This document shows, piece by piece, positions 23,607 to 26,812 of a stretch of DNA of 50,867 nucleotides. Every line of letters starts with the position of its first letter. The first letter of the stretch is position 1. Source of the stretch: Allosalinactinospora lopnorensis (lineage in GTDB: Bacteria > Actinomycetota > Actinomycetes > Streptosporangiales > Streptosporangiaceae). The DNA lies in NCBI RefSeq assembly GCF_000981225.1, contig NZ_LAJC01000040.1:1-50867 (forward strand), read 5' to 3'. A program made the translations under genes and the position numbers. The notes under the pieces were generated by a model that had not been told where the DNA came from, ran no database searches, and saw only the letters and a program-made list of their open reading frames with translations.

Positions 23607-23700
23607 TCTTCTGTCCACAACGGCGTGTCCCACAGGGCGACCACGCCCCGTGATCGGTGAGAATGCGGGGGTACGCTCGGGGGAGCCTGGGGGCGATGGG

Positions 23701-24963
23701 GTGACGGCGTTCGACGTCGGGCTTACGGCGATCGGGGCGACGGTCCTGGTGCTGGGCCTGCTGTCCGGGCCGATCAAACAGCACTTCCTGTCCGGCCCGC
23801 TGCTCGCCCTCCTTCTAGGGGTCCTGCTGGGTCCGGAGGTCCTGGGCCTGCTCACGCCGGCCGAACTGGGCGAGGAGACCGTCCTTCTGGAACGGCTTTC
23901 CCAGCTCACGGTCGCTGTGTCGCTGATGGCCATCGCCCTGCGCCTGCCCCGCGACTATCTGCGCACGCACGCCCGATCGCTCGCCATCGTGCTGGGACCG
24001 GTCATGATCGCCATGTGGCTGGTGAGCGGGCTCCTCGCCTACGCGGTCCTCGCGGTCCCGCTCTGGGTGGCGCTGCTGGTGGGGGCCGTCATAGCGCCGA
24101 CCGATCCGGTGATCTCCAGCACCATCGTCCAGGGGTCCGAAGCCGAGCGGAACCTCCCCGCGCGGATGCGGCATTTCCTCTCCGCTGAGGCGGGGGCCAA
24201 TGACGCGTTGAGCTATCCGCTGGTGTTCCTGGCGGTTCTGATGCTGACGCTGCCCCCGAGCGACGCGCTGTCGGAATGGCTGCTGAGGGTCATGCTGTGG
24301 GAGGTGCTCTTCGCCGTGGTGTTCGGCGGCGCACTGGGGTACGCGGCCGGGCGGGCGCTGAGGTGGGCGCACCGGAGCGATCGCGTGGCCCGGACCTCCT
24401 ACATCGTCTTCAGCCTCTCGCTGACCGTCACCGTGCTCGGCGCGACCGAGCTGGCGAAGACCAACGGTCTGCTCGGCGTGTTCGTCGCCGGGCTCGTGTT
24501 CCGAAACGTCATCTCCGAGCAGGAGGACCGGGACGAGGAACAGGTCCAGGAGGCGGCCAACGACTTCTTCCTGCTTCCCGTGTTCGTCCTGCTCGGTATC
24601 ACGCTGCCCTGGCAGGAGTGGGCCGAGCTGGGCTGGCGTGGTCCCGTGCTGGTCGTCGCCGTTCTCCTGCTCCGCCGCCTGCCCGCCTTCCTGGCGTTGG
24701 GGCCGTTCATGAGGTCTGTCCACGGCGTGCGGGAGGCCGCATTCCTCGGCTGGTTCGGCCCGGTAGGCGCCGCCGCGCTGTTCTACGCCAGCCTGTCGGT
24801 CCGCGAGACGCCGACCAATCTGGCATGGACGGTGGGCAGCCTCGTCATCTGCGCGTCGGTGCTCGTACACGGGGTGACGGCGACGCCGCTCACCCGGCTG
24901 TTCGGGCGGAGGGCCGGAAAGGGGGCCGCGGACCGCTCCGGGACGCCCCGGCCGGAAACGTAG
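23701..24963 (+). CDS. Cation:proton antiporter, CPA1/NhaP family
   Basis: 420 aa with about 12 hydrophobic segments. The CPA1 core is recognisable: APTDPVISSTIVQ (D135 in the TDPV motif), an RMRHFLSAEAGANDALSYP stretch with the N167-D168 ion-binding pair, and a later GLLGVFVAGLVFRN helix. It exchanges Na+ (or K+) for H+ at the cell membrane. The chosen GTG at 23701 begins VTAFDVGLTAIGATVLV, directly leading into the first helix. A GTG at 23650 would add 17 soluble residues and cannot be excluded. It ends just before a scar of decayed genes. Confidence 0.82.
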   Translation: MTAFDVGLTAIGATVLVLGLLSGPIKQHFLSGPLLALLLGVLLGPEVLGLLTPAELGEETVLLERLSQLTVAVSLMAIALRLPRDYLRTHARSLAIVLGPVMIAMWLVSGLLAYAVLAVPLWVALLVGAVIAPTDPVISSTIVQGSEAERNLPARMRHFLSAEAGANDALSYPLVFLAVLMLTLPPSDALSEWLLRVMLWEVLFAVVFGGALGYAAGRALRWAHRSDRVARTSYIVFSLSLTVTVLGATELAKTNGLLGVFVAGLVFRNVISEQEDRDEEQVQEAANDFFLLPVFVLLGITLPWQEWAELGWRGPVLVVAVLLLRRLPAFLALGPFMRSVHGVREAAFLGWFGPVGAAALFYASLSVRETPTNLAWTVGSLVICASVLVHGVTATPLTRLFGRRAGKGAADRSGTPRPET

Positions 24964-24970
24964 CGGCCGG

Positions 24971-25072
24971 TCACGCGTCGGGGGAAGCGCGGGTGTGCCG
25001 CCGCATGAGCGCGGCAACGGGCAGAGTGAGAGCGGAGAGGCCGACCAGCGAGGCGAACGCCAGGGGGTGGCC
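24971..25072 (-). pseudogene. Membrane-transporter C-terminal remnant (MFS-like)
   Basis: The minus strand encodes GHPLAFASLVGLSALTLPVA, then ALMRRHTRASPDA and a stop at 24971-24973. This is one hydrophobic helix followed by a basic tail, like the last helix of an MFS efflux protein. Upstream of about 25072 the frame turns into low-complexity Arg/Pro/Ala sequence, so the rest of the gene is gone. Family is inferred from a single helix plus context, so confidence is limited. Confidence 0.4.
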
Positions 25073-25261
25073 GCTCTGCGGCACCTCGGGCACCGCAGCA
25101 GCGAGCGGTGGGCGGCGCGCCTGGCCCGGCTGCCGAGTCCTCCCCCGCCGCGCGCGTTCGTCGAGGCGTTCCTCGCCGAGGCGCTTCCCACCGACGAGCA
25201 GAGCCGCACTTTCCATCCCGTGTGGGCCTCGTACTCGGTGCTGGCCATGACCGATCAGTGT
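25067..25261 (+). pseudogene. TetR-family regulator C-terminal remnant
   Basis: From about 25067 the plus strand reads VAALRHLGHRSSERWAARLA, then RAFVEAFLAEALPTDEQS and RTFHPVWASYSVLAMTDQ. This resembles the ligand-binding C-terminal half of TetR/AcrR regulators (LxELLPxDExxRxxxxVW pattern). No helix-turn-helix lies upstream; sequence before 25067 belongs to the transporter remnant on the other strand. After 25261 the similarity ends abruptly. Confidence 0.55.
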
Positions 25262-25396
25262 CAGGAGTCAAGAAGTCGGCAGAGTTTGATCTTGCTCGGG
25301 TCGGGATTCTGCGTCTTTGGAGGGGCTCCTCATCGTGTTCGCGTGAGCGTGGGTAGGCGAGGCGGAAGTAGGTCTGGCGCGGTGTGCGGCCTCCGA

Positions 25397-25783
25397 TCAG
25401 GGGCGGCGGCCCGCAAGGACGCAGAACTCGTTCCCCTCTGGGTCGGTGAGTACGACCCAGCTCTCATCGCCTTGGCCGACGTCGGCGTGTCGAGCACCTA
25501 GATCGAGCAGGCGACGGACCTCTTCGTCCTGCTCCCTGTCGGCTGGGTTGACGTCGAGGTGGAGCCTGTTCTTGACGGTCTTGCCCTCGGGCACGTGCGC
25601 GAATGTCAACGTCGGTGGCACTGGGCCAAGGTGGTTCTTGCCTTCAGGCCCCATAGGGAGGCCAATTGTGACAATTCCGTCGTCTTCGTCTTGCACCTCG
25701 TAGTCAAGGACCGAGCACCAGAACCGGGCGAGACCGCCTGGATCGGCACAGTCGATCGCAAGCTCGGTGAACTTACTGGTCAT
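25397..25783 (-). CDS. VOC-family (glyoxalase-like) protein
   Basis: 128 aa, one vicinal-oxygen-chelate domain starting MTSKFTELAIDCADPGGLAR, with FWCSVLDYEV, NRLHLDVNPADRE and VVLTDPEGNEFCVL, the standard beta-alpha-beta-beta-beta order. Strong SD GGGAGG lies 7 nt before the ATG. Function within the superfamily (glyoxalase, resistance or ring cleavage) cannot be told. It sits between a TetR remnant and a transposase remnant and looks less GC-biased than its neighbours, so it may be an acquired gene. Confidence 0.85.
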   Translation of the reverse strand: MTSKFTELAIDCADPGGLARFWCSVLDYEVQDEDDGIVTIGLPMGPEGKNHLGPVPPTLTFAHVPEGKTVKNRLHLDVNPADREQDEEVRRLLDLGARHADVGQGDESWVVLTDPEGNEFCVLAGRRP

Positions 25784-25828
25784 GTCAGGACCTCCCGGTC
25801 AAGTAGCGGGTCAGCCAAAGGCCACACG

Positions 25829-25921
25829 CTAACCGCAGTGTTCGACGGCGAGGGCGTTGCCGTCGCCGACGGTGGCGCGGTAGAGATGTTCGTACTTCAG
25901 CGTGCCGAAGAACCGCTTAAC
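25829..25921 (-). mobile_element. IS3-type transposase C-terminal fragment
   Basis: The minus strand encodes KRFFGTLKYEHLYRATVGDG followed by NALAVE and a stop within three codons. This resembles the FFGTLKxEhLYR segment of the integrase-core (rve) domain of IS3-family transposases, normally followed by 30-50 more residues. Only about 27 residues survive, just upstream of the VOC gene and on the same strand. No terminal inverted repeats were identified. Confidence 0.6.
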
Positions 25922-25984
25922 GGAACCGGTTCTCTTAGGGTGGTGTCCCCTTGCCGCGCTTCGGAACGGAATCGGGTAGGAGCC

Positions 25985-26812
25985 GTGCCTCCACTGTGCC
26001 GATGGACGGGAGCCACGGTGATCGCGGGGGCGCTGATCGCGCTTCCGGTCGCCTCCCTGTCGAAGGAGAGGGAGCCGGCGGCCACCGCCACCGATGTGGA
26101 GCGCCTCCGGGTCGAGGTCGTCGAAAGCCACCCGCACGATACGGGGGCCTTCACCCAGGGGCTGGAGCTGCGTGGCGAAGCGCTGTACGAGAGCGCCGGC
26201 CGCTACGGCGAGTCCGACGCCCGCATCGTGGAGCCGGAGACCGGAGCGGTCGAGCGCCGTGCGGAACTCCCCGACAGCGCTTTCGGCGAGGGACTCACCC
26301 TCGCCGGCGACACTGTGTGGCAGCTCACCTGGCGCGAGGAGACCGCGATCCGGCGCGACGCCGAGACGCTGGAGGAGACCGGGCGGGCGGACTACTCCGG
26401 CGAGGGATGGGGACTGTGCCACGACCGGGAAGGCGACCGGCTGGTCATGAGCGACGGGAGTGCCGAGCTGACCTTCCGCGACCCGGAGACGTTCGCCCCC
26501 TTGTCCTCCACCCGGGTGACGTTCGGGGGCGAGCCGCTGGAGAGGATCAACGAACTGGAGTGCGCCGACGGCGCGGTGTGGGCCAACGTGTGGCCCACCG
26601 ACGAGATCGTGCGGATCGACCCGGAGAGCGGGGAGGTCGAGGCCGTGGTGGACGCCTCCGGGCTGCTGTCGGAATCCGAGCGCTCCCAGGCCGACGTCCT
26701 CAACGGCATCGCGGTGGTTCCGGGCAGCGACACCTTCCTGGTCACCGGAAAACTGTGGCCTCGGATCTTCCTGGTCAGGTTCATCCCCGGTGAGCCGCCG
26801 TCCTCCGGGTGA
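25985..26812 (+). CDS. Secreted glutaminyl-peptide cyclotransferase (plant type)
   Basis: 275 aa. After a hydrophobic N-terminus (CRWTGATVIAGALIALPVAS), a likely signal peptide or anchor, comes the five-bladed propeller of the plant-type glutamine cyclotransferase family. Motifs: HDTGAFTQGLEL, YESAGRYGES, LTLAGDTVWQLTWRE, GEGWGLCHD, INELECADGAVWANVWPTDE and VLNGIAVVPGSDTFLVTGKLWP. It forms N-terminal pyroglutamate from glutamine on secreted peptides. The start is uncertain: GTG 25985 has AGGAG only 2 nt upstream, and GTG 26021 is an alternative that loses the positively charged N-region. Confidence 0.82.
   Translation: MPPLCRWTGATVIAGALIALPVASLSKEREPAATATDVERLRVEVVESHPHDTGAFTQGLELRGEALYESAGRYGESDARIVEPETGAVERRAELPDSAFGEGLTLAGDTVWQLTWREETAIRRDAETLEETGRADYSGEGWGLCHDREGDRLVMSDGSAELTFRDPETFAPLSSTRVTFGGEPLERINELECADGAVWANVWPTDEIVRIDPESGEVEAVVDASGLLSESERSQADVLNGIAVVPGSDTFLVTGKLWPRIFLVRFIPGEPPSSG

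Follow-up and report, generated by a model that had tools for sequence, protein, structure and literature searches.

Remnant of a TetR regulator gene and a probable transporter tail between an antiporter gene and the str operon of Allosalinactinospora lopnorensis

TetR genes related to the fragment described here are found in a number of genomes and plasmids next to a divergent gene for an MFS transporter. A DHA2 MFS gene was counted as a partner when it started at most 700 bases away on the opposite strand, and by this measure 13 of 39 loci with TetR homologues carry the divergent pair. These loci were 19 of the 31 non-self places from a search of 120 relatives and 20 of the 24 new ones from a class-wide search, out of 55 non-self matches listed. 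Among the loci at least 60% identical to the fragment, the pair is present at 7 of 10, while the other three, including the closest two (G075 and G021), are without an MFS neighbour. Two partner transporters were tested and both scored above the TIGR00711 cut-off, indicating the DHA2 group. On plasmids, the divergent pair was detected at three of five loci fetched, and both Rhodococcus pDJL1 and pGA2 are annotated with MFS and TetR genes. The pair is intact on Rhodococcus qingshengii pDJL1 (NZ_CP025960.1), with the MFS gene on the minus strand (74370-75791) and the TetR gene, 67% identical to the fragment, on the plus strand (75992-76621). The same relative orientation is seen in the 50,867-nucleotide contig analysed here (NZ_LAJC01000040.1, referred to as the window), which, in contrast, keeps at most the last 33 residues of a transporter, and these show no particular likeness to the tail of the pDJL1 transporter. 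Two intact TetR repressors with a BetI-type C-terminal domain, L048 (G021) and L050 (G106), are 73% and 69% identical over the fragment. Both carry TetR_N and TetR_C_6 above cut-off, whereas the window's fragment has neither the helix-turn-helix nor the C-terminal part.

The fragment lies 25 kb into the contig, in a mosaic that fills the gap between an antiporter gene and a cyclotransferase gene upstream of rpsL (24971-25917). In this region rpoC is followed by a small membrane-protein gene, the antiporter gene, the scar (about 290 bases), a block shared with another genus, the cyclotransferase gene and rpsL. The features are as follows.

23650-24963, plus strand: intact nhaP-like cation/proton antiporter gene, the left neighbour (Pfam Na_H_Exchanger, 150.2 bits)
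24971-25072, minus strand: probable C-terminal tail of an MFS transporter, a helix and a basic end, with the stop codon at 24971-24973
25066-25072, no strand: first junction, where the edges of the two similarities meet or overlap
25070-25254, plus strand: TetR remnant, about residues 59-120 of a 207-residue relative, from similarity searches and alignment
25255-25259, no strand: second junction, between the end of the TetR similarity (25254) and the start of the cross-genus block (25259)
25259-25853, no strand: block 92.8% identical to G023, a member of another genus, by DNA comparison
25397-25783, minus strand: intact glyoxalase-like (VOC) gene within the block (Pfam Glyoxalase_6, 105.2 bits)
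25841-25917, minus strand: C-terminal scrap of an IS481/IS3-type transposase, 92% identical to L056:7353-7429
25997-26812, plus strand: glutamine cyclotransferase gene, the right neighbour (Pfam Glu_cyclase_2, 312.3 bits)

The plus-strand remnant belongs to a TetR gene, as the first-pass annotation had proposed. When the 65 residues encoded by 25067-25261 were used as query, TetR frames were detected in 28 non-self genomes (29 of 120 with its own, E <= 0.001), the ten best non-self matches ranging from E 2.3e-24 to 4.9e-10, and the class-wide search gave 27 genomes besides its own (28 of 394 at E <= 1e-6). The three best identities among the 120 relatives were 74, 73 and 69%, and that of G873 from the class-wide search was 71%. 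The similarity covers the ligand-binding part (74% over 62 residues at best), and the 62 codons are at most 74% identical to intact TetR proteins. Its own genome contains neither a second copy nor a close paralogue, the next best match being at E 0.17. The remnant gave only 15.8 bits against Pfam TetR_C_6, below the cut-off of 27, and no match in NCBIfam, both remnants being too short for direct searches with family profiles.

Both ends of the TetR gene are missing. In L048, a protein of 207 residues, the counterpart of the remnant is residues 59-120, and the TetR_N helix-turn-helix is absent from the window, since the similarity begins only at residue 59 and the sequence to its left is the antisense tail. 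The loss of the N-terminal DNA-binding part was thus correctly recognized at first, but the remnant is not the C-terminal half that it was taken for, because the similarity stops at residue 120 (window 25254) and about 87 residues of the C-terminal domain are lost as well. Only 2 of 22 conserved columns deviate in the remnant, compared with 0 to 6 of 22 to 27 in intact relatives. The codons therefore show no sign of decay, the break looks recent, and an old, decayed TetR piece is not supported.

The switch between the two remnants is as abrupt as first described. The TetR homology begins at 25070 and that of the tail extends to its Ser-Gly-His codons (about 25066-25074), so that the similarities overlap by about 7 bases (25066-25072), as expected from a simple illegitimate join. 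The boundaries given in the first-pass annotation hold within a few bases, except that the TetR similarity ends at 25254 and not at 25261. It is at this edge that DNA similarity to the TetR relatives (G021) ends and, after the second junction, the foreign block begins. The block is found at 92.8% identity in an unrelated context in G023, and its G+C content is about 0.61-0.63 against 0.70-0.75 around it. Parts of it surrounding the glyoxalase-like gene are also present in G026, G027, G028 and G008 (75-92%), and recent transfer of 25259-25853 is likely from these sequence comparisons. The core of the block also occurs, at 84%, on a plasmid record of Streptomyces cadmiisoli. The longer transposase piece of L056 matches Pfam rve_3 (1.4e-14). 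Within the transposase scrap of G023 (L056) and G025 (L010), the sequence of 25841-25853 exists as two imperfect 13-bp copies 90 bases apart, and the window keeps a single copy, as after deletion between direct repeats.

The best explanation, to which we assign a probability of about 0.6, is an ordinary pseudogene scar with two breaks in a TetR gene whose divergent neighbour was probably an MFS efflux gene. A TetR gene, perhaps together with the divergent efflux gene, would have entered this variable spot. An illegitimate deletion with its ends meeting at 25066-25072 would then have removed the N-terminal third of TetR and, if the transporter gene was its neighbour, the operator as well as most of that gene. 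A separate rearrangement, before or after the deletion, would have joined TetR at 25255-25259 to the mobile block of VOC gene and transposase scrap, with loss of the 3' part. A single internal deletion, once thought to account for the exact arrangement, is insufficient because the TetR gene is cut at both edges and the right one needs the second junction. Since, in addition, none of 20 rpoC-rpsL intervals of relatives carries the pair, we infer the origin from a resident pair, as we do the nature of the tail as transporter and the former neighbourhood of the two genes. The predicted leftover product cannot bind DNA, form the usual dimer or transport, and no function is proposed for it, as it has neither the DNA-binding domain nor the transporter core.

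The tail consists of 33 residues, one hydrophobic stretch or helix followed by a basic, RRHTR-rich end. Set against the 12 or 14 membrane helices and the profile match of an MFS transporter, it is a remnant at most. The best match among the 120 relatives is to an MFS protein of G027 that is 391 residues long. The match covers its final 30 residues (50% identity), and the protein itself scores 129 bits against MFS_1. With a profile of 30 DHA1-like MFS proteins, the frame of the tail ranks first in the whole window, albeit at E 0.25, and is aligned with the last, C-terminal positions of the profile. A profile of 28 such proteins, from which the two nearest ones (L149 and L150) were omitted, was matched as well by only 1 of 5000 shuffles. 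The transporter-like character first noted for the tail is plausible, but 33 residues are too few to prove it. From sequence comparison it is probably an MFS remnant of undecided subfamily, fitting the shorter DHA1-like MFS better than the DHA2 partners of this TetR.

This better fit speaks for the most serious rival, still unlikely by our estimate, that a real TetR piece and the tail of a DHA1-like MFS or other membrane protein came from unrelated genes and that no pair ever existed here. Of the single proteins, L149, itself found by the search with the tail, and its relative L150 score best (z 11.9 and 8.1), whereas the score on the profile of ten DHA2 partner transporters was equalled by 150 of 5000 shuffles. 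Origin of the tail from the usual DHA2 partner is unsupported on that profile. A DHA1-like gene paired with TetR of the remnant's family was also considered, but none of 30 loci of the DHA1-like group has such a TetR gene adjoining (best tblastn E 0.013). Against unrelated genes, two partner MFS proteins of close TetR relatives, L213 (z 5.4) and L214 (z 4.9) of G873 and G126, match the tail at their C-termini with 0 of 1000 shuffles as good for each, and both orientation and position fit the usual pair. The divergent orientation reconstructed for the locus does exist elsewhere, as described above. The L213-type group as a source was rejected, the G021 homologue L233 being equalled by 39 of 1000 shuffles and no member being detected on plasmids. 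The same applies to a convergent gene native to other contexts of the antiporter, for the end of the 534-residue ORF located behind the antiporter gene in three Saccharomonospora loci is unrelated to the tail by eye.

A view in which only the TetR fragment is real, and the hydrophobic tail is an accident of translating non-coding DNA on the antisense strand, we consider improbable. The tail has no match in Pfam or NCBIfam, and the E value of 0.0035 for the G027 match applies to one genome out of 120 searched. Searched alone, the tail gave no convincing relative either in the 120 related genomes or in 396 genomes of the phylum (5 of 396 at E <= 0.05 including its own, best other 0.005), and the only match among plasmids (E 4) is annotated as MFS but is internal, not C-terminal. 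When 70 MFS C-termini, with L149 omitted, were used as control, the score of the tail was reached by 11 of 1543 arbitrary 34-mers ending at a stop codon, by 1 of 18 of matching hydrophobicity and by none of 153 membrane windows taken from proteins outside the MFS. Against a chance reading, the best match falls precisely on the C-terminal end of an MFS protein, this frame is the best of the window for the DHA1-like profile, at the profile's last positions, and the G+C content of the three codon positions (0.76/0.62/0.85) is coding-like.

A wider proposal, that divergent MFS-TetR pairs are repeatedly lost through deletions of the shared front that leave scars, with the window as one case, is quite improbable. 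The second candidate would be the Tsukamurella plasmid pTpau01 (NC_014159.1, L182:2552-2653), where an opposite-strand 34-residue match to an MFS N-terminus accompanies an intact TetR homologue; this is perhaps another decayed MFS-TetR pair. An assembly chimera is very improbable, for although the draft assembly comprises 220 contigs, the TetR piece is single in the assembly and the stretch is located inside a 50.9-kb contig with the expected genes on both sides.

To return to the pseudogene scar, its setting resembles that of prokaryotic pseudogenes in general. As among such pseudogenes (surveyed in PMC522871), a gene fragment is found at a variable spot next to horizontally acquired DNA, and no difference of principle is apparent. 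Within the portions of the literature covered, general pseudogene surveys were found and none on the rpoC-rpsL scar locus. The scar most likely represents everyday gene decay where DNA comes and goes, and opens no new mechanism. For annotation, small TetR-like proteins or ORFs that may be called here should not be mistaken for regulators; the plus-strand frame 24995-25501, for example, runs for 168 codons without a stop.

The presence of the scar further identifies the region from the antiporter gene to the str operon as a variable site of gene gain and loss. The content of the rpoC-rpsL interval differs between relatives, and none of 20 intervals, all from genomes of other genera, gave a match to TetR queries or to MFS queries at a threshold of E 1e-4. 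Relatives lacking the pair at this locus were what the first-pass annotation had named as evidence against its proposal. These intervals were 19 hand-picked stretches, mostly among the best rpsL matches (rpsL was matched in 280 of 297 genomes), and that of G006. The pair may possibly have been gained and then lost inside the window's own genus. G006 (RJMB01000014.1, Nocardiopsaceae bacterium YIM 96095) has the order rpoC, small membrane-protein gene, cyclotransferase gene, antiporter gene and rpsL, and the antiporter copy adjoining rpsL is 77% identical to the nhaP-like gene of the window. The order of antiporter and cyclotransferase is thus swapped between the window (23650-26812) and L057 (G006). 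In G087 the cyclotransferase gene is present and other genes occupy the gap. Other contexts of the antiporter (G023, G087, G178, G180, G230 and the three Saccharomonospora loci) gave no match to the remnants, the surroundings having been read in 6 of 7 non-self genomes, all except G239. The antiporter homologue of G087 (L087, G087:C2, 10096-11385) is located within about 340 bases of a contig end and is not near the str operon, although that genome is nearly complete.
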